Assembly: GCA_028683855.1 (NCBI GenBank)
Contig: JAQUHA010000013.1
Coordinates: 1-64,000, forward strand
From: Desulfuromonadaceae bacterium
GTDB taxonomy: Bacteria; Desulfobacterota; Desulfuromonadia; Geobacterales; Pseudopelobacteraceae
Direction: 5' to 3'
DNA: 64,000 nt
The notes beneath the pieces were generated by a model. It saw nothing but the letters and a program-made list of their open reading frames with translations, ran no database searches and was not told where the DNA came from. Positions 45,623-60,976 of this stretch are shown here, piece by piece. Position numbers and translations under genes: made by a program. Position 1 is the first letter of the stretch. The number at the start of each line of letters is the position of its first letter.

Positions 45623-45635
45623 AAAGGAATTGTAT

Positions 45636-46808
45636 ATGAACTTACTACTATCAACCACATCTGCACCTTACCCCGGCAGGATGTTACCTGTAACACATCC
45701 TGCTTCAACCCCATCTGTTTCAGAGTTCCAGCATCTCCTCCACGGCATTGATTCCCTTGACCTCGGTCTATACGTCGCGTGGGGATCAGACTGGAAACGC
45801 CGACTTCACTCCCTCGACAAGAAAAAACAGCAAGCCCGCAGAAATGGCGCTCTGCTGATCTCAATGCCTTCCGGTAGAAACTGTATCTTCAAACCTGGTG
45901 GCAAAGGTGAGAACTACCGCTTTCATCTTCAGTTCGACGCTTACAATCTCTTTATCGGTAAATCAGCAACCCCTGGTACTTCGCCCAACGTCTATCTCTC
46001 CATAAGTGCCAAAGTTCTCTGGCATAACGGTATTGAAACCGCCTTGTCATGGATTGCACTTGATCTGAAAGCAATCGGTGGTGGTACGATCCAGCGTGTG
46101 CAAGTTAGCCGTCTTGATCTCTGTGCCGACTTCCTGGTTCCAGGTGGACTCTCTCACGAATTCATTCTTTCCCACAAAGTGACCCGCAACGATAAAGGCA
46201 AGCTCTACCTCGACAAGAACGAACTGCAAACCTATTACGCTGCCGATGGAAAGTCGCCTATTCAGCTAAGACTGTACAATAAGGGTTTAGAGGTAAAACA
46301 GGGTGGGATAAAGCTCTGGTTCCTCGATCTCTGGAAGCGTGAATCAACAGATGACATCTGGCGCATAGAATTCCAGGTGCGCCGCCCTGCCCTCAAACAG
46401 TTCGGGATAAACTCTATTGACGATCTAAAAGAGAAACAAGCCGGACTATGGGGGTATCTCACTATGAAATGGTTTTCCCTCCGTCTTCCCGATAACGACA
46501 AAGCAGAACGTAAAACCGTTCACCCCTTCTGGTCTGCCGTCCAGGAGTGTTTTAAGAACGATATTTCTGGTACTTGCAGTCAAGCATACCGTAACTGCGT
46601 GACGCTTGCAGCTGCCTCACCGGAATGGCACCTATCCCATATAGACGGCTGTCTCTCCTCCTTTGCCGCAATTCTCGGAATAAGTAATCGTGAAGAGGCT
46701 CTGCAAGAATTACAGAGTCGTCTGACTAAACGCAACAACGCCGCCGACTTTGAGACCGCCTGCATTAAGAAAGCAATTCAACGCGGAACTTCAGGGGGTG
46801 GACAATGA
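45636..46808 (+). CDS. Replication initiator, Rep_trans family
   Basis: 390 residues from the ATG at 45636 (AAGGA 7 nt upstream). Family features: GLYVAWGSDW near the N-terminus, VQVSRLDLCADF (the VSRxDxxxD strand of Rep_trans/MobT-type relaxases) and DIWRIEFQVRR. PIQLRLYNKG is also present. These proteins nick an origin hairpin and start rolling-circle replication or transfer of integrative elements. Its gene overlaps the helicase-like gene downstream by 4 bp, and hairpin and repeats lie directly in front. Confidence 0.72.
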   Translation: MNLLLSTTSAPYPGRMLPVTHPASTPSVSEFQHLLHGIDSLDLGLYVAWGSDWKRRLHSLDKKKQQARRNGALLISMPSGRNCIFKPGGKGENYRFHLQFDAYNLFIGKSATPGTSPNVYLSISAKVLWHNGIETALSWIALDLKAIGGGTIQRVQVSRLDLCADFLVPGGLSHEFILSHKVTRNDKGKLYLDKNELQTYYAADGKSPIQLRLYNKGLEVKQGGIKLWFLDLWKRESTDDIWRIEFQVRRPALKQFGINSIDDLKEKQAGLWGYLTMKWFSLRLPDNDKAERKTVHPFWSAVQECFKNDISGTCSQAYRNCVTLAAASPEWHLSHIDGCLSSFAAILGISNREEALQELQSRLTKRNNAADFETACIKKAIQRGTSGGGQ

Positions 46809-48328
46809 TGGACTCTTTCAGCGACTCAGCACTTTCAGCTTACTTCCCTGGTCTGGTGGATATCTGCCAGAATGAAGAGGGTCAACTCGTCTATGCAATC
46901 ATAAAAGATGGGGAGCTGATCTTCTCCCAGGAGTACAAGACCGATACTGATAGCTTCTCTATACCTGAGAGAAAACATTTCCAGTTCACCATTCCCCGCG
47001 CCGCCGAAGTCATGCGTTACTTCAAACAGGATGACGATTCGCTCTATGACGATCTTCTGACCTATCTGAAACGCTTCTCCGGTCTGGACGATATGCAGTG
47101 GGCTATTGTTGCTCACTACATCTTTCTGACGTATCTGCACGATCACCCATGCATTGACTACTGCGGCTATCTCCTCTTCTACGCCGTACCGGAAAGGGGG
47201 AAGAGTAGAACCGGCAAATCAGTCACCTATGTTGCTTTCAGGGGCATTCATCTGATTGAACTTCGGGAAGCTACTATCTTCCGCTACAGCCAGAACCTCC
47301 ACGGCACACTGTTCCTTGATCTGCTTGATGTGTCAAAGAAGGCGGAACGTGGCGGCTGTGACGATATTTTACTTCTACGGGCTGAAAAGGGTGCCAAGTG
47401 CTGCCGTGTGCAAAATCCGGATCAAGGCCCATTCAACGATACAGTTTATTACGATATTTACGGACCGACGATCATTGCCAGTAACGAACAGTTGCACAAC
47501 ATCCTTGAGACAAGATGCCTCCCGATCATCATGCCGAACCGCCCAGGGAATTATGAGAATCCACGTCCCGAACTCGGCATTGAATTAAAGGAGCGTCTGA
47601 CAGTCTGGAGAGCTAAGTATCTCACCGCAACACTTCCCGATCTGGAACCAATCGACGGTATTTCCGGAAGACTCTGGGATATTACAAAACCGATGTTCTT
47701 TATAAACTCGCTTCTGCCTGTTGATTCTTCAATCCTCGAAGATTCGATTCTTTCAATAGCTGGTGAAAAGGATGAATCAAGGAAAGATTCTCTGGAAGGT
47801 CGTCTGGTAGCGATCATAAAGGAGATAACTGAAGAGAGTGCCCTTGGTCGATTCGCTGAATGGAGTATCAAGACCGGAGAGATTCGAGACAGATTCAATC
47901 AGGGGAGACCAATAGACAAGTATGTTTCACCTCAATGGATAGGTAAGAGATTAAAGAGCATGAGTTTTCACAATAGGATTGTTCACGGCTATTCGGAGAT
48001 CAAGATCACCGCCCAAGAATACGCCCTGATCCTCAAGCAGTACGGGCATGACAAGAGAGAGTCGCAAATACCCGTCAACTCTCACCCCAACTCTCTACCA
48101 GATAAAAGCCAACAGATTCAGCAACCTTTGAAAGAGGTAGAGAGTGGTAGAGAGTCTGCACAGGTGCGAGGTCAACGGTTTACCTTTACTACACCGGAAG
48201 AGAAAGAAGTTTATCTTGCCAGACTTAATGAATTGAAGGAAACAGGCGGCTTGTCTCGGGATGAGATGGAAGGACAGGCTCAAGGGTATTTAGAGCAGTG
48301 GAGGTGCGACCATGACTTTCCATTCTAA
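46805..48328 (+). CDS. P-loop helicase/primase-like replication protein
   Basis: 507 residues. An N-terminal region of about 100 residues is followed by an ATPase core with PERGKSRTGKSVTY (P-loop-like), DLLDVSKKAERGGCDDILLLR and the sensor segment TIIASNEQLHNILETRCLPIIM. The C-terminal region has a wH-like part (RFNQGRPIDKYVSPQWIGKRL). It resembles element-encoded replicative helicase-like proteins (DUF3631/DUF927 neighbourhood). ATG overlaps the rep stop, so the pair is coupled. Family name not certain. Confidence 0.62.
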   Translation: MMDSFSDSALSAYFPGLVDICQNEEGQLVYAIIKDGELIFSQEYKTDTDSFSIPERKHFQFTIPRAAEVMRYFKQDDDSLYDDLLTYLKRFSGLDDMQWAIVAHYIFLTYLHDHPCIDYCGYLLFYAVPERGKSRTGKSVTYVAFRGIHLIELREATIFRYSQNLHGTLFLDLLDVSKKAERGGCDDILLLRAEKGAKCCRVQNPDQGPFNDTVYYDIYGPTIIASNEQLHNILETRCLPIIMPNRPGNYENPRPELGIELKERLTVWRAKYLTATLPDLEPIDGISGRLWDITKPMFFINSLLPVDSSILEDSILSIAGEKDESRKDSLEGRLVAIIKEITEESALGRFAEWSIKTGEIRDRFNQGRPIDKYVSPQWIGKRLKSMSFHNRIVHGYSEIKITAQEYALILKQYGHDKRESQIPVNSHPNSLPDKSQQIQQPLKEVESGRESAQVRGQRFTFTTPEEKEVYLARLNELKETGGLSRDEMEGQAQGYLEQWRCDHDFPF

Positions 48329-48808: not shown

Positions 48809-50122
48809 ATGAAGAAGACATCAGGCATGGTTTCATTGAATGAAACTTTGCAATCTGGCGGCACTATTAAACGCCGCAAAATCTCAGAAAAGTTGTATGT
48901 GGACTTTTACTATTTCGGCATTCGTATAACCAAGTCCACCGGCCTTGACGATACGCCGCAGAACCGGGCTAAAGTCCGTTCGTTCCTTGATAAATCAATG
49001 CAGAAAATCGAAGCCCGAACATTCAGGTTTGCTGATGCGTTCCCTGGTGCATCTCGTAAAGAGAAGAAATTATTTACTGAGCTTGAAGGGCAACAGTTTA
49101 GTCCTGAACCTCAGTATGTGATTTTTGGGGAGTATGCTAAAGAGTGGATGAAGAAGGTTATTCCGACTTTTGAATCAACGACGAAACGTAATGATTACGA
49201 GTCGGCTTTGAACTCCCGAATTCTTCCCTATTTCAGAAAGAAGAATTTTTATCAAATTACCAGCATGGAGCTACAGAACTTTGCCGCCTCGCTTAAAAAG
49301 AAAACCGGCAAGAACAAGGGGAAACCGCTTGCAAGACAGCGGATGCAGAATATTATTATTCCGCTGCGCCGAATCTGGGAAGATGCTGCCGATCAGCACC
49401 GCTGGAATCTTCGTAATCCGTTTGAGACACTCAGTAAGCACCTACCTTCAAAGTCTCGCAAAAGAAACGGCAAAGTGTTCAGGTTCACTGAATGGCAAAA
49501 TTTCATAGCGTGCGCTCCATTGTTTTTCAGGCCGCATCTGGAGTTTTTGCTAATGACCGGTTTATCGGCAAGTGAACTGGCCGGACTGCGGAAAGAAGAT
49601 GTTTCTGATAAGGCGATCACGCTTAACCGTTCTATTGTGCTTGGGGAAGAAAAAGACCGGCTCAAGAATGATTACCGTTTCAGACGAATTCCGGCAACCG
49701 ACGCAATCAAGAATGTGGTAAGTCGGATTCAGGCTCTTTGCCCTGATTCTCCATATCTGTTCCCGATGGAAAACGGCAGGCCATTTGACGGGAATTCATT
49801 CAGGAAGATCGTTTGGAACAAAGCCCTGAATGAGTCACAGATTGCATACAAGACTCCGTATAGCACACGGCACACGTTCTGCGCCTGGGCACTTACCATT
49901 GGCTTGAATCCGATGAAGCTGGTCAATCTGATGGGGCATTCATCAAAGCAGATGGTGTATCAAGTTTACGGGGAATACGTCGAAGACCTGGAAGACGATG
50001 TGGATGATATTATCGGCTATTTTGGGAAGGATTTTCTGATAAAACCAGGCAAAAAAATATCCCCAATACTGCTTTATGGGGACAGTGTGGGGACAGTTGC
50101 TACTTATTTACAAAAATCATAA
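48809..50122 (+). CDS. Tyrosine integrase of island 1
   Basis: 437 residues. Arm-type N-terminus, SAM-like core-binding domain (about 115-200, FGEYAKEWMKKVIPTFEST), and catalytic domain with Arg in GLSASELAGLRKEDV, HxxR-type STRHTFCAWAL, His in LMGHSS and Tyr in VYGEYVEDLE. Ends 3 bp before the right attachment repeat and reads toward it, the usual layout for tRNA-targeting integrases. It is not an integron integrase: too long and without that family's extra patch in the places I can judge. Confidence 0.88.
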   Translation: MKKTSGMVSLNETLQSGGTIKRRKISEKLYVDFYYFGIRITKSTGLDDTPQNRAKVRSFLDKSMQKIEARTFRFADAFPGASRKEKKLFTELEGQQFSPEPQYVIFGEYAKEWMKKVIPTFESTTKRNDYESALNSRILPYFRKKNFYQITSMELQNFAASLKKKTGKNKGKPLARQRMQNIIIPLRRIWEDAADQHRWNLRNPFETLSKHLPSKSRKRNGKVFRFTEWQNFIACAPLFFRPHLEFLLMTGLSASELAGLRKEDVSDKAITLNRSIVLGEEKDRLKNDYRFRRIPATDAIKNVVSRIQALCPDSPYLFPMENGRPFDGNSFRKIVWNKALNESQIAYKTPYSTRHTFCAWALTIGLNPMKLVNLMGHSSKQMVYQVYGEYVEDLEDDVDDIIGYFGKDFLIKPGKKISPILLYGDSVGTVATYLQKS

Positions 50123-50125
50123 ACA

Positions 50126-50164
50126 ATTCTATGTAGTTAAATGGAGCGGGAAACGGGATTCGAA
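50126..50164. repeat. Right attachment repeat of island 1 (tRNA-Gly 3' end)
   Basis: 39 bp matching 34474-34512 with 2 mismatches. The part from 50142 is the true 3' end of the tRNA-Gly(CCC) fragment, including the CCA complement at 50142-50144. Confidence 0.76.
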
Positions 50165-50192
50165 CCCGCGACCTTCAGCTTGGGAAGCTGAA
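50142..50192 (-). tRNA. tRNA-Gly(CCC), 3' part only
   Basis: Read on the minus strand: anticodon stem TTCAGC, loop TTCCCAA (anticodon CCC), stem GCTGAA, variable GGTC, T-arm GCGGG-TTCGAAT-CCCGT, acceptor strand TTCCCGCT and encoded CCA. The D-arm and 5' acceptor strand (expected GCGGGAA) are absent beyond 50192, where unrelated AT-rich sequence starts. The gene is therefore cut in or next to its anticodon arm by the second island. Confidence 0.8.
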
Positions 50193-50349
50193 TTTTTATG
50201 ATTTCAGAGCTTTTCATTATGTATCAAATCCCTCCCAAATACCAGTCTAACATATTGACTTTCCTGAATTTAACTTATATATTCTTTCCTGTTGTTTCCA
50301 ATCACTTTTGATCGTTGCCAAGGCATTAGAGGTTACACGGAGGTTACAC

Positions 50350-51678
50350 GTGCCGGATACGATAACACCCCAAAATCGGCAGCGCAAGCGTGAAGTGCGC
50401 AAACCGGGGTCTTTCACTGACAGGTATATCAAGAGCCTCAAGCCGGATAAGGAAATGTACCAGCTTCGCGAGGGACGAGGATTTGCCATTCGCGTCCTGC
50501 CTTCCGGGGTCAAGACCTGGTACTACATCTATACGATCAACGGGAAGCGCAGACAGCTCAATCTTGGTAACTACCCTGACATAAGTCTGGAGGCAGCACA
50601 TAAAACGTATCTCGAATCAGCTGCTCTCGTAAAGAGCGGCATAGATCCGATGGCCAAACCGGTTGAGGAAACCGCCGAGCCGGCGCAACAACAGGTTGAA
50701 CTGACCGTAAGGCGGCTCGCGGTTGACCTGTATCTTGATGATTGGTCCAAAATCCATCACTCGGAAAGATGGCACTACAACAACAGGAAAGCACTGGAGG
50801 CCGATATATTGCCGGTCTGGGGTGACCGTCTGGCTGTCGATATTCGACGGAAGGACGCAGTAGAGATTCTGGAACTGGTGGCAAAGCGGGCACCCGGTCA
50901 GGCCCGGAATGTCCTGAAAGCCGCACGGGGAATGTACTCGTACGCTGTCGACCGGGAACTGCTGGAATACAACCCATTTGCTGACATCAAGATATCCAGG
51001 ACCATCCCCATGATGCAGCCCATGTCCCGGGACCGCGAACTTTCAGAGGATGAGATAAGGCATCTCTGGAAAGCGATTGACGAAGGTGGTGGGAGCGAAA
51101 GCACCAAGCGGGCACTGAAACTGATTCTGGTCACCGGGCAGAGACCGGGGGAAGTGGTCGGCATGCACCGGCGTGAAATCCAGGGAAAATGGTGGACAAT
51201 ACCATGGCAGCGAATCAAGACCCGCAAGCGCCGTCAGGAAGATCACCGGATTTATCTTACGCCATTGGCGATGTCGCTTATAGGCGATGAGAAGGAATAT
51301 ATCTTTCCTGATCCTGCCGGTAAAAGCGCCATGACTGAAAATGCCCTGAGCCACCATGTGCGCAAGGATATACCGGATACCGTCAAGCGTCCGTATTATG
51401 ACCTCCCCCGCTGGACACCTCATGATCTTCGCCGTACAGCAGCCACGAGGCTTTCCAAGATCGGCGCGTCCGATGAGGTCATCGATGTTATTCTGAACCA
51501 CGCCAAAAAGGGTGTAAGCGGCATCTACAACCGGAACAAGTACGATAATGAAAAGCAGTTGTGGCTTACCAAATGGTCACAGCACCTGTCGAGACTTCTC
51601 AAGAAAAAGCAACCTGCAGCGAAAGGCACCGGTGGCAAGAAGAGCGTCAAAAGTTCCACCGAAGAACCCAAAAAGTAG
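50350..51678 (+). CDS. P4-type tyrosine integrase of island 2
   Basis: 442 residues from the GTG at 50350 (GGAGG 6 nt upstream). The DUF4102 arm-binding domain comes first: DRYIKSLKPDKEMYQLREGR, VRVLPSGVKTWYYIY, LGNYPDISLEAA. The core domain is followed by catalytic residues in TGQRPGEVVGMH (Arg), HDLRRTAATRL (HxxR), NHAKKG (His) and SGIYNRNKY (Tyr). P4-like integrases use tRNA anticodon or T-loops, consistent with the split tRNA 160 bp upstream. A basic tail rich in Lys follows. Confidence 0.9.
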   Translation: MPDTITPQNRQRKREVRKPGSFTDRYIKSLKPDKEMYQLREGRGFAIRVLPSGVKTWYYIYTINGKRRQLNLGNYPDISLEAAHKTYLESAALVKSGIDPMAKPVEETAEPAQQQVELTVRRLAVDLYLDDWSKIHHSERWHYNNRKALEADILPVWGDRLAVDIRRKDAVEILELVAKRAPGQARNVLKAARGMYSYAVDRELLEYNPFADIKISRTIPMMQPMSRDRELSEDEIRHLWKAIDEGGGSESTKRALKLILVTGQRPGEVVGMHRREIQGKWWTIPWQRIKTRKRRQEDHRIYLTPLAMSLIGDEKEYIFPDPAGKSAMTENALSHHVRKDIPDTVKRPYYDLPRWTPHDLRRTAATRLSKIGASDEVIDVILNHAKKGVSGIYNRNKYDNEKQLWLTKWSQHLSRLLKKKQPAAKGTGGKKSVKSSTEEPKK

Positions 51679-51800
51679 TTTCTGCACGATGGGGGAGCAC
51701 TCTCTGCAGCCAGAGGATTATCAGTATAGCTGTCAAACTATTTATGGCTGCTATTTATGTCAATAGCGTTTTTATAGTTGCTAAATATGCTGTTATCGTT

Positions 51801-51819
51801 AAATATAGAAGCTATATTT
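51801..51819 (+). promoter_or_regulatory. Inverted repeat before the Fic gene
   Basis: AAATATAG-AAG-CTATATTT, perfect 8-bp arms, ending 19 bp before the ATG at 51839. Several related ATAGC/GCTAT words lie in the 80 bp in front. A plausible operator for the helix-turn-helix part of the Fic protein itself. Confidence 0.5.
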
Positions 51820-51838
51820 GCTGATTATGGGAATTCTG

Positions 51839-53314
51839 ATGTCGAATAGAAACGAAAATATCCTGCCGGAAGTTTTCCTCTCAGAAAGCGATGCCTCGCG
51901 TGCTGTCTCGAACATGGTCAAGCTGGGGACTGCGCGTAAAATCGGCCCACGGCTCTATACCCGTAACATGATCGAGCCGGTGGAGAATATCGTTGCCCGC
52001 AATCGCTGGCAGATTGTCGGCATGCTGGCGCCAGGCGGAGTGATCGGTTTTCGTACCGCCCTGGAAAGTCATCCCGCCGAGGATGGATCCGTCTTTGTCA
52101 CCTGCGGCTACAAAAAGATTTCCGAACTGCCGGGTCTGCGGATTGTCAGAATACCCGGTTCAGGTCCGGTCGAAGGCGATATGCCTTTTATCGGCGGACT
52201 TCACATGGCATCGCCTTCACGTCTTCTACTGGAAAACCTCTCGCATACAAAAGCACGGGAGGGAGCAACCAAGGCTGCCGGGCAGAAGGCTGTCGAAGAG
52301 AAACTTACCTCCATCCTGCGGATCAAGGGCGAAAGTGAGTTGAACCGGATCCGTGACCTTGCACGCTCCATTGCAGCAGATATCGGCCTTGAGAAAGAGT
52401 TTCAACTGCTCGACCGTCTGATCGGCAGCCTGCTGCAAACGCGGGAAGCAGACTTGAAAAGTCCGGTCGCACGGGCATATTCCAGCGGTGAACCGTATGA
52501 CCCTGCCCGTCTGGAACAGTTTGAAGCCCTGCGCAGCGCACTTGCCCGCAGCGTCCTGCCAAGCCGGAACCGCACCTATGAACCGGGGCCGGCGTTTTAC
52601 AACGAAAGCTTCTTCGACGCGTACTTCTCCAATTTTATCGAAGGGACCGAGTTTGAAGTGGACGAGGCTCTGGGGATTGTTTTCTCTGGAGTGATTCCCC
52701 AATCCCGACCGGAAGATGCCCATGACATCCTCGGTACCTGGCGTATCGTCGGCAATCTTGTTGAATTACAGCGGACGCCATCGGATATCGCCTCATTCAT
52801 GGAACTGCTGCAAAGCCGACATACGTCGATCCTGGAAGGGAGACCGGACAAACGCCCAGGGGAGCTAAAGGAGAAGGGCAACCGGGCCGGGACTACCTAC
52901 TTTGTCGCACCGGAACTGGTAAAAGGTACGCTTGCCCAGGGCTTCTCCTTCTACAATTCACTGTCCGATCCACTTGCACGAGCGCTTTTCATGATGTATC
53001 TCGTTTCTGAAGTCCATCCCTTTGACGATGGCAACGGCAGAACGGCGCGGGCGATGATGAACGCTGAACTTGTTGCGGCTGGTGTCTGCCGGATCATCAT
53101 CCCGAGTGTCTACCGCAACGAATACATAGCATCGCTGAAACTGCTTTCCAACCACAAGGACCCTGCGGCATTCCTTCGCGTCATGGATGTGGCTCAGGAT
53201 TTTGTCAGCAGAATAGATTTCAGCGAGCTGGCGTCTGCCCGGCACATTCTGGAGCGGTGTAACGCGTTTGAACGACCTGCCGATACCGTCAAACTGATGA
53301 TGCCCTCACCCTGA
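51839..53314 (+). CDS. Fic-domain protein with N-terminal winged helix
   Basis: 491 residues from the ATG at 51839; TTG at 51818 and ATG at 51827 are alternatives. An N-terminal AbiEi-like winged helix region (SESDASRAVSNMVKLGTARKIG) is followed by the Fic domain with HPFDDGNGRTAR, the active-site motif of AMP-transferring Fic enzymes. SNFIEG matches the inhibitory S/T-x3-E-G motif placed N-terminal to the Fic core (class II, self-inhibited). Such proteins modify target proteins by AMPylation and many serve as toxins or stress regulators. Alone with an inverted repeat in front, it is probably self-regulated. Confidence 0.85.
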   Translation: MSNRNENILPEVFLSESDASRAVSNMVKLGTARKIGPRLYTRNMIEPVENIVARNRWQIVGMLAPGGVIGFRTALESHPAEDGSVFVTCGYKKISELPGLRIVRIPGSGPVEGDMPFIGGLHMASPSRLLLENLSHTKAREGATKAAGQKAVEEKLTSILRIKGESELNRIRDLARSIAADIGLEKEFQLLDRLIGSLLQTREADLKSPVARAYSSGEPYDPARLEQFEALRSALARSVLPSRNRTYEPGPAFYNESFFDAYFSNFIEGTEFEVDEALGIVFSGVIPQSRPEDAHDILGTWRIVGNLVELQRTPSDIASFMELLQSRHTSILEGRPDKRPGELKEKGNRAGTTYFVAPELVKGTLAQGFSFYNSLSDPLARALFMMYLVSEVHPFDDGNGRTARAMMNAELVAAGVCRIIIPSVYRNEYIASLKLLSNHKDPAAFLRVMDVAQDFVSRIDFSELASARHILERCNAFERPADTVKLMMPSP

Positions 53315-53363
53315 AGCGCATGAATTGAATATATAAAGCGGTGGCTCGACATGAGATCATTTC

Positions 53364-55772
53364 ATGAAACATAACAGGGCAACACTCATCGAAGCCATTG
53401 CCTTGAAAGAGACACAACTTGCTCGGCTCGACGCTGAACGGCAGGTGCTCCTTGATACGCTTCATGATCTACGGCAGCAGGTGTCAGCTATAGATGCATC
53501 CTCTTCCCCTGCCTCAGAACTTTCCTCATTATCCTCAGACGATAAGATTACCCTGTTCCGTTCCCTCTTCAAAGGGCGGGAGGATGTCTACCCGAAACTG
53601 TGGGTCAGCAAGAACGGTGACCGCAAGGGATACATGCCCGCCTGCGCCAATGACGGAGTCTATACCCTCTGCGGAAAACGCAAGACTCCCCGAGTCAGGT
53701 GCAGCGACTGCAAGCACCAGTCGTACGTGCCGGTCACGGATGAGGTACTTAAGGAGCATCTCCAGGGGAAACAGACCATCGGTGTTTACCCGCTCCTGCC
53801 GGACGACACCTGTCGGTTCCTGGCGGTGGATTTCGACAAGACAACCTGGCAGGAGGATGTGGCGGCCTTCCGGGAAACCTGTACAACTTTTGATCTCCCA
53901 GTTGCGATAGAACGCTCTCGCTCAGGTAATGGCGCCCACGCCTGGTTCTTCTTCTCGGAACCGGTTATGGCCGCAACAGCGCGGGTCATGGGTTGCTACC
54001 TTATTACCGAAACCATGTCCCGGCGCCACCAGCTCAGCATGGAATCATATGATCGGCTCTTCCCCAGTCAGGACACCATGCCTCGCGGCGGGTTCGGCAA
54101 CCTGATAGCCCTGCCGCTGCAATGGGAGCCGCGTAAAAAAGGGAATAGCGTCTTCGTTGACGAGACATTCTCCCCCTATCTGGATCAATGGGGTTATCTG
54201 ACATCGCTCAAACGGCTATCTTCACAGGAACTCCAGTCCATTGCCGACAAGGCAGTGCGCAAAGGACAGGTAATCGGCTTACGGTTGCCGTCGGATCATG
54301 ACGAAGAACAGGCACCATGGGAACGGTCGCCTTCAGGACGGCTGCCTGAGCAGCGGATCAAGGGAAAGTTGCCAAAAACAATCACGGCGGTACTTGCCCA
54401 AAAAATCTTTGTTGAAAAGAAATCGATCCCGTCGGAGTTTCTCAACCGGATCAAACGGCTGGCCGCCTTCCAGAATCCCGAGTTCTACAAGAAGCAGAAG
54501 ATGCGGCTCTCGACCCACAACACCCCACGGGTTATCGCCTGCTTTGAGGAACTGCCGGAATATGTGGCGTTGCCGAGAGGCTGTCGTGATGCGCTCGAAA
54601 CCCTCCTCAACGAACTTGGTATCACGTTACATCTCGATGATAAGCGTCAAGCCGGTGTTGTAACCTCCTTCGAATTCCATGGCACATTATCAGATGTCCA
54701 GCAGCAGGCCGTAGATAAACTCATGCAGCACGACATCGGGATATTTGTCGCACCTCCCGGTTCCGGCAAGACGGTAGTCGGCGCATGGATGACAGCGGCC
54801 AGGAATTGTTCAACCCTGATCCTGGTACATCGCAAGCCTCTTCTGGACCAGTGGGTGGCCCAGCTTGCACGCTTCCTTGATCTGCCACCCAAATCGATCG
54901 GCACCATCGGCTCGGGAAAGAGCAAGGCAACCGGGGTTCTGGATGTGGCCATGATGCAGAGCCTGGTCAGGAAAGATGAGGTTGCCGATCTGGTCGCCAC
55001 TTACGGTCAGATTATCGTCGACGAATGTCATCACCTGCCGGCATTCTCCTTCGAACGGGTGCTGGCCGAGGTGAAGGCCCGATATGTGGTAGGACTTACT
55101 GCCACCCCGTACCGACGCGACGGCCATCAGCCCATAATCCACATGCAATGTGGGCCGACCAGGTATTCATTGGACCGGAAGCAGCAGGAGTCACGTGACG
55201 CATTCACCCGGCGCCTTATCCTCCGGGAAACAAGTTTTACTGTGTCAGACTCCGATAAGGAGACGACCATCCAGGAAATCTATGCTCTGTTGGCTTCCGA
55301 CCGGGAGCGGAACCGTTTCATTCTCGATGACATACGAAAAGCCCTCGCCGACGGGAGGTCGCCAATTCTCCTGACCGAACGAAAGGACCATCTGGAACTC
55401 TTTGCCGGGGAGTTGCGTGATTCGGTGAAGCACCTGGTGGTACTCCATGGCGGCATGGGGGTAAAACAGAGACGCAAGATTATAGAGCATCTCGCAGCGA
55501 TTCCCGATGACGAAGAACGACTGATACTTGCTACGGGGCGCTATATCGGTGAGGGTTTCGACGATGCCAGGCTGGACACACTTTTTCTGGCGCTGCCTTT
55601 CTCATGGAAAGGGATGCTGGTACAGTACGCGGGCCGGCTCCACAGGCTTCGCGCTGGCAAAAAAGAGGTCCGGGTATACGACTATGTGGACGGGTCAGTG
55701 CCGATGCTGGCCAAAATGCATGAAAAGCGTATGAAGGGGTTCAGAACTCTGGGATATGAACAGGTAACGTAG
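53364..55772 (+). CDS. TOTE-type primase-helicase
   Basis: 802 residues. A short coiled coil (1-45) precedes a zinc-binding region with C-x-LCG...CSDC (about 93-120). A primase-like domain (about 135-290) with FLAVDFDKTTW (metal-binding Asp pair), GAHAWFFF and MPRGGFGNLIALPLQ follows. A superfamily 2 helicase (about 440-795) has APPGSGKTVVGAW, IVDECHHLPAF and GLTATPYRRDG. The order primase-helicase is known from TOTE conflict systems, thought to defend or copy mobile elements. No other TOTE partner is seen next to it except the Fic gene 49 bp upstream. Confidence 0.8.
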   Translation: MKHNRATLIEAIALKETQLARLDAERQVLLDTLHDLRQQVSAIDASSSPASELSSLSSDDKITLFRSLFKGREDVYPKLWVSKNGDRKGYMPACANDGVYTLCGKRKTPRVRCSDCKHQSYVPVTDEVLKEHLQGKQTIGVYPLLPDDTCRFLAVDFDKTTWQEDVAAFRETCTTFDLPVAIERSRSGNGAHAWFFFSEPVMAATARVMGCYLITETMSRRHQLSMESYDRLFPSQDTMPRGGFGNLIALPLQWEPRKKGNSVFVDETFSPYLDQWGYLTSLKRLSSQELQSIADKAVRKGQVIGLRLPSDHDEEQAPWERSPSGRLPEQRIKGKLPKTITAVLAQKIFVEKKSIPSEFLNRIKRLAAFQNPEFYKKQKMRLSTHNTPRVIACFEELPEYVALPRGCRDALETLLNELGITLHLDDKRQAGVVTSFEFHGTLSDVQQQAVDKLMQHDIGIFVAPPGSGKTVVGAWMTAARNCSTLILVHRKPLLDQWVAQLARFLDLPPKSIGTIGSGKSKATGVLDVAMMQSLVRKDEVADLVATYGQIIVDECHHLPAFSFERVLAEVKARYVVGLTATPYRRDGHQPIIHMQCGPTRYSLDRKQQESRDAFTRRLILRETSFTVSDSDKETTIQEIYALLASDRERNRFILDDIRKALADGRSPILLTERKDHLELFAGELRDSVKHLVVLHGGMGVKQRRKIIEHLAAIPDDEERLILATGRYIGEGFDDARLDTLFLALPFSWKGMLVQYAGRLHRLRAGKKEVRVYDYVDGSVPMLAKMHEKRMKGFRTLGYEQVT

Positions 55773-55935
55773 AGAGTGTAATTTCAAATATTCCCCAAGG
55801 ACTTGAGCCTACCAATAATCGGCATGCGCAAAATTCACCGGATATTGTTTGTTTTTGCAATTATCCATTATGAATTACCCTCAAGGTATTTCAATGTGCA
55901 ATACCACCTGCAACTACCACATTTCCTCACCAAAA

Positions 55936-57246
55936 TTATTGATCAAAAATTGAGGGCTGCTGTGCTTTCTGCTGTTGCCATTGGAAGCGAACCGGCTTGC
56001 TGAGTTTTTTGATATAACCTTCATCTTGAGCCCGTTTTAGCCAGTCATTCAACTGGGTCTTGCAGACATCGACCTGGTTCAGCATTTCATCAAGGGTAAT
56101 GGGGGTTTTATACGTCAACTCCTGAAAACGTTGCAAGAACAGGCCATAAAAACTTACAGGTCCAGGCGGTGTTTCAGCAGCCGGAATCAGTTCTGGAGCC
56201 TCTTCTTTTCTATATATGTTGTCATCTGATGGCACCTCACATACCACTGGCGGATGCTCCTGCCTTTCCAGCAAGGACATTTGGGCCGGCTCAGGCAACT
56301 CGGTTTTCGTTGTCTGCTGTTCGACTGCGGTCATCAGCACTTTGAGATCAAGCCTGTCTCCCGGCAGCCATTTGGCACCTTGCCGGACAAGCTCGGCATT
56401 ACCGGATGATGATGACGAAGTAGTTTTCACCCAGAGTGGCACCCAGGTCTGCCGCAAATTCTCGACCGCTCCGTTCCATGTCCCTCCCTTGTTTTTCGTA
56501 GAGGAAACCACAATCGCCGCATCAGCCAGGCAATAGATATACTTGTTGCGAGACATTGCGTTGCCGACATCGAAACCTGCCTCTGGATTGAACGGTGAGA
56601 TCAGTACCAGGTTATTGGCCATCAAAGATTTGCGGTACTTGGCCGAAGTTGCGGAACGAAGCAGGCTATCTGCCAATATGCCGATGGTCGTCCCTTCATG
56701 GGCAAGCGATCCTTGCATTGCCGCTTCGTCGATTCCGCGAGCGCCACCGGACACGATTGAATACCCTTGAGTGGCAGCTTCTTTTCCCAGAGTAGTCGCA
56801 AACAGAAGATCATCCTCTGTAGCATCACGGGAGCCGACGGCCGCGATTCCTCCCTTGTTGAGCAGATTGCGGTTGCCGCACCCGAACAGCACTGGCGGAG
56901 AATCTGTCTTGAGCAATTTCTTCAAACGGTTCGGATATTCTGCGTCAGAACGGGTCAATACCCACAAACCTGCACGCTGCCACTTTTCCAGAGCCAGAGC
57001 CAGAGCACTGCCACGGCCTAGCAAAAAACGGATGCGATCAAGCGTTACTGTTTTGTCGTTCCAACCCAACAACAGCGATCCAGGGTCATTACCCAACAAT
57101 GCTTCCGGGAGAGTTTCTTTCTCCTTCAGCCACAGGGCGAACCGACCCCACTCAGTAGGTGAAAGGGGGCGAGGATCACCCTTGACCGGTTTAGAAAAAT
57201 AAGCTGTCAATAACAAAACCGCCTGTGTTTGCCCACTGATATTCAT
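55936..57246 (-). CDS. DprA/Smf-like SLOG-fold protein
   Basis: 436 residues from the ATG at 57246, which follows GGGG and overlaps the RecQ stop codon. The DprA/SLOG Rossmann domain spans about 120-310: YPNRLKKLLKTDSPPVLFGCG, IAAVGSRDATEDD, VSGGARGIDEAAMQGSL and TIGILADSL. A Ser-rich patch and a linker lead to a C-terminal winged helix with ITLDEMLNQVDVCKTQLNDWL. Longer than competence DprA, with an extra N-terminal domain. Coupled to RecQ-PRTase. SLOG domains bind nucleotides or DNA; the role is probably with the partner helicase rather than in competence. Confidence 0.78.
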   Translation of the reverse strand: MNISGQTQAVLLLTAYFSKPVKGDPRPLSPTEWGRFALWLKEKETLPEALLGNDPGSLLLGWNDKTVTLDRIRFLLGRGSALALALEKWQRAGLWVLTRSDAEYPNRLKKLLKTDSPPVLFGCGNRNLLNKGGIAAVGSRDATEDDLLFATTLGKEAATQGYSIVSGGARGIDEAAMQGSLAHEGTTIGILADSLLRSATSAKYRKSLMANNLVLISPFNPEAGFDVGNAMSRNKYIYCLADAAIVVSSTKNKGGTWNGAVENLRQTWVPLWVKTTSSSSSGNAELVRQGAKWLPGDRLDLKVLMTAVEQQTTKTELPEPAQMSLLERQEHPPVVCEVPSDDNIYRKEEAPELIPAAETPPGPVSFYGLFLQRFQELTYKTPITLDEMLNQVDVCKTQLNDWLKRAQDEGYIKKLSKPVRFQWQQQKAQQPSIFDQ

Positions 57247-57247
57247 A

Positions 57248-59356
57248 TCAATCCCCGGTACTCGTACTTGCCAATGCCACCGGCCAGACAATCCCGCTGC
57301 CGGCACGGCGCAGCAATGCCGCAATCACGGTCATCGTCCATGCCGAATCCACCATGTCGTCTACCAGTAGCACCGGCCCATTGGATATGCCGGGGATAAC
57401 GGAAAAGACGCCATCAAGGTTCCGGCACTGATGATAACGGTTCTGCTGAAATTTTTGTTGCTGGTTGTCACGTACCTTGGTAACCGCTTCTACAAATGGC
57501 AGATTGAGCCTTGCAGCCAAACGGCGAGCAAAATCCGGCACCAGTTCCGGATGGTTGCGAGAAGGTACACAGGTGACCCATGCCGGTCGCGGCTCTGGTC
57601 GCCACCGTTCCGTGACCATCTCGGCCACGGCATTGACCAGATCATCCCGGAAACGGTTATTGTGCTTGTCCTCAGCAACTATGCGTCCCCAGCCTGCGTC
57701 ACCCCAACGGGAAAGAATCCTGCCGGTCTCGGCGCGGAGATTGGCTGGAAGATTTCCGCTAAATCCGTACTGCTGAAATGCGCCACCAGCCACCTGTTTT
57801 TTACATTCCAACGGCAGTTCGGCATGTTTCAGATACAGTGCCGCCTCGACAGCCAGCCGATGGGAAAATTCCTCCGGAATGACCGGTTGACCGAGACAAC
57901 GAGCACATCTTCCGCAGGGTTGCGCCTGTTCGTCGTCAAGTGAACGGGCAAGGAACAGCATCAGACAATCCGGACTGTTTATATATTCCTGGACTTCCTG
58001 CCACTCGCCGGCACGCTGCTGCGTCAGACGCTGAATGTGCTGATGGTCGAGCCGATAGGCAACAGGAGTACGCCGCCAGCGCGAACCGTCCTTGATAACG
58101 GGAGAAGGATTTTCAACCGACAGGAATTTGAGTACCTTGTCAATCTGTCCCTTGCGGAGATTAACTTCAGCTTCGAGTTGGCGGTCCGATAATCCATCAC
58201 TTTCCGCAAGCGCATCCATAATGCTGTTCACATGGCGTTCGTCCGGAAAGGCGCTGGCACGGAAAAACTCTTGAATCTCTTGATCTTCCCGTCCTGAAAG
58301 CAGCACGCCAACAGCATAATCTATGGCACGCCCAGACCGGCCTACCTGCTGATAGTATGCAACTATGGAGCCCGGCGCCTGATAGTGAATGACAAAACCG
58401 AGATCAGGTTTATCATACCCCATTCCCAAGGCTGTCGTTGCCACAAGCGCTTTTATCTCATTGTTGAGCAGTGCTGATTCAAGATATTGCCGGTATGCGT
58501 CGGAACTTTCAAAGCTGTCAGCTTCGACCCCGCTGTAGTATGCTTTGGCAGTAATACCGTTCAGTGTCAGCCATTCGGCGACTTGATCGGCATCACGTTT
58601 AGTAAGGGTGTACACGATTCCGGTGCCGGGAAGTTGCGGCAGATGTTCAGCTAGCCATGCCAGGCGTCCTGACTGGTCTGGAAGCTTAACCGTCTGCAGA
58701 GCGAGGGTTTCGCGAAGAAGCGAACCCCTCTGAATATCAATATTTCCCAGCTGTGATGTGATGTCATCCAAAACCCGGTTGTTGGCCGTCGCAGTCGTAC
58801 CGAGTACCGCCATATTCGGCGGCATGTGCTGCAATACGCTCACAAGCCGGCGATAATCAGGCCGGAAATCATGGCCCCAGTCAGAGATACAGTGAGCTTC
58901 GTCCACAACCAGAAGACCGATCTGGTTGGCAACGGGGAGCAGGACCGTTCGGACAAATTCATCATTTGCAAGACGTTCGGGAGAAATCAGTACTGCGTCC
59001 GCTTGATTGTTCAGAATGGTTTGTATCAATGGCTGCCAATCATCGCGATTGGTTGAGTTTATTGTTACCGGTCGGATTCCCAGACGTTCTGCAGCCTCGA
59101 TCTGGTTACGCATCAGCGCCAGAAGGGGCGAAACGATCAGAGTCGGGCCATGTCCCCTGTCACGCAGGATGCGGGTTGCTATAAAGTAGACCGAGCTTTT
59201 CCCCCAGCCGGTTCTCTGCACCACCAGCATCTTCCTGCGCTGGTTCACGATGGCGTCAATAGCTTCCCACTGGCCGTCACGAAAATCGGCGTTTTGATTC
59301 GACAGGGCTCGACGCAGTAATTCAAGGGCGTAATGTTGGTCAGTGGGAGCAGGCAT
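57248..59356 (-). CDS. RecQ-family helicase fused to a phosphoribosyltransferase domain
   Basis: 702 residues. RecQ helicase core (1-360): FRDGQWEAIDAIV (motif 0), QRTGWGKSS (P-loop, 47-55), VVDEAHCISDWGHDFRPDYRR, and in domain 2 QVGRSGRAIDYAVG. The zinc-type region has CGRCARCLG (about 480). The C-terminal 150 residues look like a phosphoribosyltransferase: VLLVDDMVDSAWTM, the PRPP loop (SAWT in place of SGxT). The family role (3'-5' helicase) is known; the fused domain suggests nucleotide handling. Followed by the coupled DprA-like gene. Confidence 0.82.
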   Translation of the reverse strand: MPAPTDQHYALELLRRALSNQNADFRDGQWEAIDAIVNQRRKMLVVQRTGWGKSSVYFIATRILRDRGHGPTLIVSPLLALMRNQIEAAERLGIRPVTINSTNRDDWQPLIQTILNNQADAVLISPERLANDEFVRTVLLPVANQIGLLVVDEAHCISDWGHDFRPDYRRLVSVLQHMPPNMAVLGTTATANNRVLDDITSQLGNIDIQRGSLLRETLALQTVKLPDQSGRLAWLAEHLPQLPGTGIVYTLTKRDADQVAEWLTLNGITAKAYYSGVEADSFESSDAYRQYLESALLNNEIKALVATTALGMGYDKPDLGFVIHYQAPGSIVAYYQQVGRSGRAIDYAVGVLLSGREDQEIQEFFRASAFPDERHVNSIMDALAESDGLSDRQLEAEVNLRKGQIDKVLKFLSVENPSPVIKDGSRWRRTPVAYRLDHQHIQRLTQQRAGEWQEVQEYINSPDCLMLFLARSLDDEQAQPCGRCARCLGQPVIPEEFSHRLAVEAALYLKHAELPLECKKQVAGGAFQQYGFSGNLPANLRAETGRILSRWGDAGWGRIVAEDKHNNRFRDDLVNAVAEMVTERWRPEPRPAWVTCVPSRNHPELVPDFARRLAARLNLPFVEAVTKVRDNQQQKFQQNRYHQCRNLDGVFSVIPGISNGPVLLVDDMVDSAWTMTVIAALLRRAGSGIVWPVALASTSTGD

Positions 59357-59419
59357 ATAGTTCTCCGATATATTCGTTCAAGCAGCCTCCAAAGAAATGC
59401 GTTCACTCACAACTGTACT

Positions 59420-60733
59420 TCAGGCAGGCTCCATGTTCAGCAGATATTTGAAAGCCGGGATCAGCCGTATTATTTTACCGTCAAGCGAAAGTTCTTCCTC
59501 ATCCTCATAGGTGATGATCTCACCTCGATCCAATCCGGTCTCTTCCATCGCCTTGATCAGTGATCGCAATTCCCGGTTGCGTGTGCCCTCATCCCCTAAG
59601 GTATGCACGACCTGGATCAATTGCGTGATCTTGCCGCCGGTACAGCAGGCAAAATCAACCTCAAGGCCATTGCCGGTCTTGTAGTAGTAAAGTTCATGGC
59701 CTCGGCGTTTCAGATCAAGATAAACCTGATTCTCCAGGAGATGCCCAAGATTTTCACTGAAACTGAATCCGACGGCACCGGCCATCCCGGTGTCAATGGC
59801 GTAGACCTTTTTCGGGCTTTTGATCTGCTCCTTCGCGGAAAATGCAAAGGAGTCGAGAGTAAACAGCAGATAGGCATCGCTGAAATATCCCAGGTACTCC
59901 TTCACGGTCTTATCGTTGAGACCAACCAGAGCCGCCAGCTTGTTGAAACTGTAGAGCGAGGAGATATTCGACGCCAGGTAGAAAAAAAGATTCTCCAGAT
60001 CAACGGCCTTCTTGATGTTAAACCGGGGGGCTATGTCCTGGTAGAGGATGTTTCTGGCGTACATCACCAGAAGCTCTTTTTTGGTTTCCGGCAGATCTAC
60101 CGCACCGGTCTCCGGGAACCCGCCAAAACGGAGGTAGTCGTCAAGAAGTTTGCGCAGCCGGTTTCGCTGTTTGGTCACTGCTACTGCATCGCTGATACTC
60201 AGCCCGTTGGAAGCAATAAACTCCGGGAAAGAAAACGGATACACCTCAACCGGCATCGCCCGCCCGGAAAGAAGGGTAATGAACTCCGATGTAAGCAGGT
60301 GCGAATTGGACCCGGTGACAATGAACTTTATCCCCTTCTGTTCGTATTTTGCCTTGACGAATACCTGCCATTCAGGAAAGAAGTGCACCTCATCGAGGCA
60401 GCAGTAAACCGGTCCGACCGGCGCAACCAACTTCAGGTAATCGTCATAGGCCCGCTCAAGGTAGGATACATCGCTACGGTGACGGCTGAATTGTGGGTTT
60501 TCCAGATTGAGAAATAGTATGTTCCGGGGGGGTACCCCCTTATCGCGTATCAGGTGGTTGATCGTTTGCCGCACCAGCGTGCTCTTGCCTGACCGACGCA
60601 CACCTACCAGCGCGACAATGTGGGGCAGATCCAGATAACCCTTCACCTTACCGAGAATTCCGCGTGAGACCCCTTCCTGGTAGAGGGTCCCATCCCAATG
60701 GGGATTCTGGTCAACGATTACCGATTCAAACAT
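59420..60733 (-). CDS. AAA-type ATPase with DUF4143
   Basis: 437 residues. AAA_14 domain with VGVRRSGKSTLVR, FLNLENPQF, YCCLDEVHFFPEW and VTGSNSHLLTSE. DUF4143 with YARNILYQDIAPRFNIKK, NDKTVKEYLGYFSDAYLLF and the nuclease-like tail LENQVYLDLKRRGHELYYYKTGNGLEVDF. Common, mostly uncharacterised ATPase type found in many genomes; some act as element or toxin modules. Promoter and imperfect inverted repeat lie before it. Confidence 0.86.
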   Translation of the reverse strand: MFESVIVDQNPHWDGTLYQEGVSRGILGKVKGYLDLPHIVALVGVRRSGKSTLVRQTINHLIRDKGVPPRNILFLNLENPQFSRHRSDVSYLERAYDDYLKLVAPVGPVYCCLDEVHFFPEWQVFVKAKYEQKGIKFIVTGSNSHLLTSEFITLLSGRAMPVEVYPFSFPEFIASNGLSISDAVAVTKQRNRLRKLLDDYLRFGGFPETGAVDLPETKKELLVMYARNILYQDIAPRFNIKKAVDLENLFFYLASNISSLYSFNKLAALVGLNDKTVKEYLGYFSDAYLLFTLDSFAFSAKEQIKSPKKVYAIDTGMAGAVGFSFSENLGHLLENQVYLDLKRRGHELYYYKTGNGLEVDFACCTGGKITQLIQVVHTLGDEGTRNRELRSLIKAMEETGLDRGEIITYEDEEELSLDGKIIRLIPAFKYLLNMEPA

Positions 60734-60756
60734 AGATCGCTCCGAACTAAATCTGT

Positions 60757-60793
60757 ATTGTTCGTATTATAACGCGAATAATATTCATTTCAA
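60757..60793 (-). promoter_or_regulatory. Promoter and operator of the DUF4143 ATPase gene
   Basis: On the minus strand: TTGAAA (60793-60788), 16 bp, perfect TATAAT (60771-60766). An imperfect inverted repeat (ATTGTTCG at 60757, CGAATAAT at 60775; 7 of 8 pair) surrounds the -10, suggesting repression. Confidence 0.6.
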
Positions 60794-60867
60794 GCGAAAT
60801 TGTCAGCCTATCATCCACCGTCATGCGGGCCGACCTTACGTATGTTGAACTGGCGAATTAATTCGAC

Positions 60868-60976
60868 AATGGCGCATTGATGGTACCATTTTTGTACCCA
60901 AAGATGCGCCATTAGTAGAAGGTGGCAAAAAGCTCCCCATATTTGGTACCAAATTGGCATCCAAAACAGCCACCTT
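60868..60976. repeat. Cluster of nested inverted repeats
   Basis: Outer 10-bp arms AATGGCGCAT/ATGCGCCATT (60868-60877, 60904-60913) hold an inner GGTAC/GTACC pair. Then AAGGTGGC/GCCACCTT (60919-60926, 60969-60976), followed by TTT, holds a perfect 12-bp palindrome TTTGGTACCAAA (60942-60953). The second may end transcription toward the ATPase promoter or the small membrane gene. Confidence 0.55.

Follow-up and report, generated by a model that had tools for sequence, protein, structure and literature searches.

The locus considered here, part of a 64,000-nucleotide stretch of DNA that we analysed as a whole (hereafter the window), encodes a RecQ-like helicase with a C-terminal phosphoribosyltransferase (PRTase) domain and, directly behind it, a DprA-like protein. 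It raises the question of whether these two genes form a unit of a new kind or belong to a system already described. The initial annotation of the window did not recognise the combination as a described defence unit. That view was mistaken, and an undescribed system is ruled out, by the existence of dedicated PADLOC models for PsyrT and PsyrA and by the characterization of RqlHI from Escherichia coli in 2015 (PMC4670107). Judged from its sequence, the gene pair is an ordinary, intact copy of PsyrTA (= RqlHI), a catalogued toxin-antitoxin pair. The two genes, the parts of the first and the gene preceding them are arranged as follows:

57248..59356, minus strand: psyrT (rqlH homologue), 702 aa, with ATG at 59356 and TGA at 57250-57248; PADLOC PsyrT, Pfam DEAD, Helicase_C and Pribosyltran
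57851..59317, minus strand: helicase part of psyrT, with Walker A QRTGWGKS (K53), a DEAH box (D152) and the Zn-type cysteines C464/C481/C484/C487
57251..57571, minus strand: C-terminal PRTase part of psyrT, with PF00156 at residues 609-687; compared with PDB as a profile of 34 rows
55936..57246, minus strand: psyrA (rqlI homologue), 436 aa, with ATG at 57246 and a stop codon ending at 55936; PADLOC PsyrA, PF02481
59420..60733, minus strand: gene of an AAA_14/DUF4143 ATPase, upstream of psyrT on the same strand; Pfam AAA_14 and DUF4143, PADLOC candidate PDC-S01

The source cited for PsyrTA, a PADLOC/DefenseFinder system, is reportedly Sberro et al. 2013. The system is catalogued among bacterial anti-phage systems (PADLOC), and both window proteins were recovered by its models: PsyrT by PDLC03928 with 1016 bits, over residues 7-702 of 702 and positions 5-688 of the 689 in the profile, and PsyrA by PDLC03927 with 524 bits. 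The second-best PADLOC model for the latter protein was ShosA, with 98 bits. Membership in ShosTA was rejected because the PRTase of the toxin is fused to a RecQ helicase and the ShosA score lies far below the PsyrA score. According to NCBIfam, PsyrT is not a canonical RecQ (259 bits with TIGR01389, for 640 required, the helicase part alone matching), nor is PsyrA a canonical DprA (107 bits with TIGR00732, for 191 required); a stronger DprA match is encoded elsewhere in the host genome, at C33, separate from psyrA.

The open reading frame of psyrT is intact, and Pfam recognised in its product RecQ-type DEAD and Helicase_C domains and, at the C terminus (residues 609-687), a Pribosyltran domain (PF00156) that scored 30.0 bits for a cut-off of 26.3. 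The C-terminal domain contains the motif VLLVDDMVDSAWT, and among 34 aligned homologues the residues D666, D667, S671, W673 and T674 of the PRTase loop are invariant, so that the initial reading of a RecQ helicase with a PRPP-loop-like C-terminal domain is upheld. The Walker A motif, the DEAH box and the four RecQ-type cysteines are invariant or nearly so in the same homologues, D152 and D667 being invariant and K53 nearly invariant. With PF00156 above cut-off and a DD..DSxWT motif, PsyrT displays the acidic PRPP loop of the type I PRTase superfamily in an atypical form: the PRPP loop of PRTases usually reads T-G-x-T and that of PsyrT S-x-W-T, and an invariant W within this loop is unusual among PRTases. 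A profile of the C-terminal domain (34 rows) gave weak PDB matches to PRPP synthetases and to amidophosphoribosyltransferase (E 5e-6 to 2e-3), which fall mostly around the PRPP loop. AlphaFold modelled PsyrT with a pLDDT of 88.6 and the C-terminal domain with high confidence, in blocks mostly of 88-98 pLDDT. A Foldseek search with the whole model returned RecQ folds on top; all 50 matches listed are helicases and are thus uninformative for the PRTase domain.

PsyrA harbors a DprA domain (PF02481, 148.6 bits), in which G138-S139-R140, G167, A169, G171, D173 and R233-N234 are invariant or nearly so among homologues. Its AlphaFold (AF2) model, with a pLDDT of 87, combines a DprA core with a small helix/strand domain at the C terminus, the two joined by a disordered linker (residues 314-361), and the best PDB fold matches of the model are DprA (3maj), ShosA (8zva) and DprA (3uqz). 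The protein had been described as DprA-like with a winged-helix tail: the DprA part was confirmed, the tail as modelled is compatible with a winged helix, and the length is 436 rather than 462 residues. The 462-aa frame opens at TTG 57324, a mechanical start that was discarded, as homologues align from ATG 57246 in tblastn. An overlap between the stop of psyrT and the start of psyrA, also claimed at the outset, was rejected because homologues begin at ATG 57246; the junction reads TGA-T-ATG, a gap of 1 nt that is also present in the close relatives L003, L004, L005, L008, L009 and L015. The coupling of the two genes stands, psyrA lying directly downstream of psyrT on the same strand across this single nucleotide. 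The AAA_14/DUF4143 ATPase gene ends 63 nt ahead of psyrT and a promoter-like TTGAAA-16-TATAAT occurs at 60793-60766, promoter-like sites overall being no more numerous than expected by chance. Co-transcription of the ATPase gene with psyrT is possible, although the ATPase is not a conserved partner. As a third component it is unsupported, being absent from the 25 commonest Pfam families of upstream neighbours.

To evaluate the linkage of the two genes, we used 43 loci in which PsyrT is intact and of full length; they were taken from scanned genome contigs, together with one E. coli locus. The PsyrT proteins of this sample display 41-91% identity and originate from Pseudomonadota, Thermodesulfobacteriota, Cyanobacteriota, Kiritimatiellota, Chloroflexota and others. 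A psyrA homologue directly follows psyrT in 41 of the 43 loci (in two, psyrA runs off the contig end), a figure that applies to the fairly close PsyrT relatives reached by the contig scan. This was the neighbourhood survey suggested in the initial annotation; the pairs are conserved neighbours, and the lack of conservation that had been named as a ground for refutation was not seen. Judged by its invariant PRPP-loop-type motif, the C-terminal domain likewise gave no sign of the second such ground, an inactive non-PRTase fold. The gap between the two genes is shorter than 30 nt in 35 of 38 measurable pairs, with start codons chosen by the analyst. The two loci devoid of psyrA (L044 and L048) both belong to Actinomycetota, which matches the published finding of RqlH without RqlI in Gram-positives; as PsyrT occurs in actinobacteria without PsyrA, the pair is therefore not obligatory. 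In a Bacteroidetes locus counted among the 41 (L041, 10078-12151), two divergent PsyrA-like genes lie in tandem behind psyrT.

PsyrT is sporadic, with five strong matches besides the window copy among the 98 genomes searched, and a strong match is absent from 38 other genomes of the host genus. A search of 50,697 phage records found no close phage-encoded PsyrT at E<=1e-60, and the PsyrA matches in these records were partial generic DprA proteins only. Two types of psyrTA occur in E. coli, one chromosomal, between gntU and yhgN, in many genomes (L068, L069), versus a rarer one nested in restriction genes (53 genomes).

The E. coli pair at gntU-yhgN provides the link to experimental data. PsyrT shares 62% identity with the helicase of this site (L068) over 697 residues without a gap, and PsyrA 44% identity with its partner over nearly the full length. 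Russell & Mulvey 2015 mutated K49, D148 and D663 of RqlH in E. coli F11 (PMC4670107), and these residues correspond, at a constant offset of 4 in the alignment to L068, to K53, D152 and D667 of the window protein. By numbering and by its DIVD motif, the gntU-yhgN helicase fits an RqlH-type protein, the aligned sequence being L068 and not F11 itself. RqlH and RqlI are encoded in a co-transcribed operon; RqlI physically binds RqlH and counters its toxicity, its C-terminal HTH being dispensable for rescue, and this toxicity requires the PRTase domain and D663 and leads to SOS induction and filamentation (PMC4670107). The theme of DNA damage, already proposed for the window pair, is sustained. The nucleotide signal suggested along with it is conceivable but found no support in this analysis.

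Since every relevant residue is kept, we infer that the window copy most likely works as reported for RqlHI by analogy, with PsyrA restraining PsyrT and its release leading to PRTase-dependent damage or arrest. PsyrT would act as a RecQ-like translocase/helicase whose toxic part is the C-terminal PRPP-binding-type PRTase domain, and DprA-like PsyrA, produced from the same operon, would bind PsyrT and render it harmless. Restraint could be lost when the partner is lost or titrated, or when foreign or damaged single-stranded DNA is recognised by the DprA or helicase part; for a related pair, DprA was proposed to sense phage DNA and thereby to activate the PRTase (Rousset et al., PMC9122126). The PRTase would then act while the helicase sits on DNA, with DNA damage/SOS, filamentation and a growth stop as consequences, and in an infected cell the PsyrT-driven arrest would serve as abortive defence. 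The trigger, the PRTase substrate and phage defence by the window copy are what we infer within this scheme. Counting against it are the atypical PRPP loop, the actinobacterial PsyrT without PsyrA and the observations in E. coli that the PRTase alone is non-toxic and that helicase-dead RqlH mutants behave in a complex manner (PMC4670107).

The surroundings of the pair agree with the defence-island context initially assumed, for they form an island bounded by copies of tRNA-Gly and containing TOTE, Fic and BREX genes. Its left part within the window comprises:

50142..50191, minus strand: left island boundary, an att-type repeat of 50 bp that copies the 3' part of tRNA-Gly
50308..51678, plus strand: tyrosine integrase adjoining the boundary repeat; PF13356 and PF00589
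51818-53314, plus strand: Fic-domain protein, its HPFDDGNGRTAR motif intact
53364..55772, plus strand: archaeo-eukaryotic primase of the TOTE type, in fusion with a superfamily 2 helicase; AEP-TOTE PF22548, E 5e-97

The 50-bp repeat matches, with 100% identity, the 3' part of a tRNA-Gly-like gene that the same genome carries in intact form (C34:82712-82786), and is also present in a relative, Geobacter sp. UBA5730 (L014). Between the tRNA-Gly copies, from window position 50142 to C34:82786 (L076), the island spans about 32.6 kb and contains the integrase, the Fic protein, the TOTE primase-helicase, psyrTA, the AAA_14/DUF4143 ATPase and a BREX set. The latter lies in the same island outside the window, about 6-23 kb beyond, and its BrxF, BrxC, PglX, BrxH, PglZ and BrxA give it a type III-like composition. 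The TOTE gene is convergent with psyrA and is island cargo outside the pair. A block corresponding to window 50530-60974 appears to be mobile as one unit because its counterpart in Geobacter UBA5730, 91-96% identical, adjoins an intact tRNA-Gly. A second integrase (48809-50122, plus strand) abuts the left boundary repeat, and two ORFs of 392 and 507 aa on its left (45630-48328, plus strand) have no Pfam match; together these genes hint at a tandem or older element. The psyrT of Geobacter sp. UBA5730 (L014, near 8014; also L061) displays a deletion of about 361 bp, equivalent to window 58998-59359, as a result of which the L014 gene lacks its start codon and roughly 120 N-terminal residues, Walker A among them. 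The psyrA downstream of it is 97% identical to that of the window; as read from the sequence, the toxin has here been lost naturally while the antitoxin was retained.

The neighbours of psyrTA elsewhere were surveyed as the two nearest ORFs on each side in about 40 loci, and the results are raw Pfam counts rather than enrichment. N6_Mtase and Methylase_S were the commonest upstream families (6 each of 77 ORFs) and type I R-subunit domains the commonest downstream (3 of 69 ORFs); BREX and Druantia-type helicase genes were also encountered. In several loci, the order hsdM-hsdS-psyrT-psyrA-hsdR occurs on one strand, namely in Geobacter (L003), Providencia (L012), Shewanella (L035), Kiritimatiellae (L031/L032) and E. 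coli (L059, NZ_CP023853.1 4725647-4735726), with extra genes in some loci; such nested operons span at least three lineages. A literature search for RecQ/DprA genes embedded in type I restriction-modification (RM) operons found no papers in the library searched. The system being already known, this nesting may be its sole new part, and the functional meaning of the nesting is speculative.

Two other explanations have to be weighed. The pair could be a DNA repair or processing module, in which PsyrT would remodel DNA, PsyrA would load or protect single strands, toxicity would appear when the two are unbalanced and phage defence would be incidental. A role of this kind would suit the actinobacterial PsyrT without PsyrA (L044, L048), the active helicase reported for M. 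smegmatis RqlH in work cited by PMC4670107, and the rqlHI-type pair found in many E. coli genomes at the single gntU-yhgN site with no visible island, but psyrT is patchy within the host genus, and integrative islands and restriction operons are also places where psyrTA sits. When PsyrTA of E. coli NILS69 was challenged with a phage panel in 2025, no protection was detected (PMC12409345), which counts against a strong defence role and is compatible with a repair module, whereas the invariance of the PRTase motif and the reported PRTase dependence of toxicity (PMC4670107) are at odds with it. Overall, we consider a repair module unlikely.

The nested loci suggest another role, modelled by analogy on PrrC, in which PsyrTA would stay silent as long as a partner, restriction or another defence, is intact and would be released when a phage inhibits this partner. 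Such a role finds an echo in the hsdM-hsdS-psyrT-psyrA-hsdR order itself, in the flanking hsd genes retained in all 53 E. coli genomes with L059-type psyrTA, and in the PsyrT tree, on which nesting was gained or lost at least four times, yet the nesting may merely mirror co-mobility, and the window copy, like most homologues, lies outside any RM operon. That PsyrTA might guard co-resident DNA-targeting defences in general, silenced by an intact restriction complex and firing upon its inhibition by a phage, strikes us as a long shot; as the explanation of the pair, a PrrC-like guardian is very improbable. Were it true, the BREX set of the window island could represent a looser coupling of the same kind.

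The explanation that we favor, and hold to be likely, is that the pair is PsyrTA/RqlHI carried as cargo of a tRNA-Gly island, with a PsyrT toxin restrained by PsyrA and acting through PRTase-driven DNA damage or arrest. It is preferred because of the 62% and 44% identities to the E. coli proteins, the retained counterparts of the residues mutated in RqlH, the reported toxicity of RqlH and its neutralisation by RqlI, the PADLOC matches, the linkage in 41 of 43 loci, the defence-rich neighbours and the patchy distribution. For the window pair, domain identity, intact motifs, linkage and island context are established here. The outcome being a catalogued system, the locus is no new unit but one more example, intact and well conserved, from a new setting.

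Among known systems, PrrC of the type IC RM system EcoprrI resembles some psyrTA relatives in its position within an hsd operon (PMC3874165, PMC2610378), but it is an unrelated protein, an anticodon nuclease; guarding by PsyrTA would be an analogy only, and the window pair lies outside an hsd operon. The competence proteins ComFA/ComFC and DprA again bring together helicase, PRTase and DprA parts; PsyrT differs in being a RecQ-family protein rather than ComFA, in its fused PRTase, in its toxin-antitoxin behaviour and in its sporadic distribution. ShosTA likewise combines a PRTase toxin with a DprA-like antitoxin, and PsyrA resembles ShosA by profile (98 bits) and by fold (8zva), whereas ShosT is a PRTase without a helicase (PMC9122126) and the window PRTase is helicase-fused. 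RqlH-RqlI of extraintestinal E. coli shares with the window pair a leading gene for a RecQ and PRTase toxin, a DprA-like antitoxin and the residues that were mutated; the RqlHI-type pair of E. coli lies at gntU-yhgN with genes overlapping as annotated, in contrast to the 1-nt gap and the integrative island seen here. With PsyrTA, finally, the window pair shares the two-gene architecture, the gene order and end-to-end matches to both models, and it differs in no relevant respect, its host being Geobacter-like.
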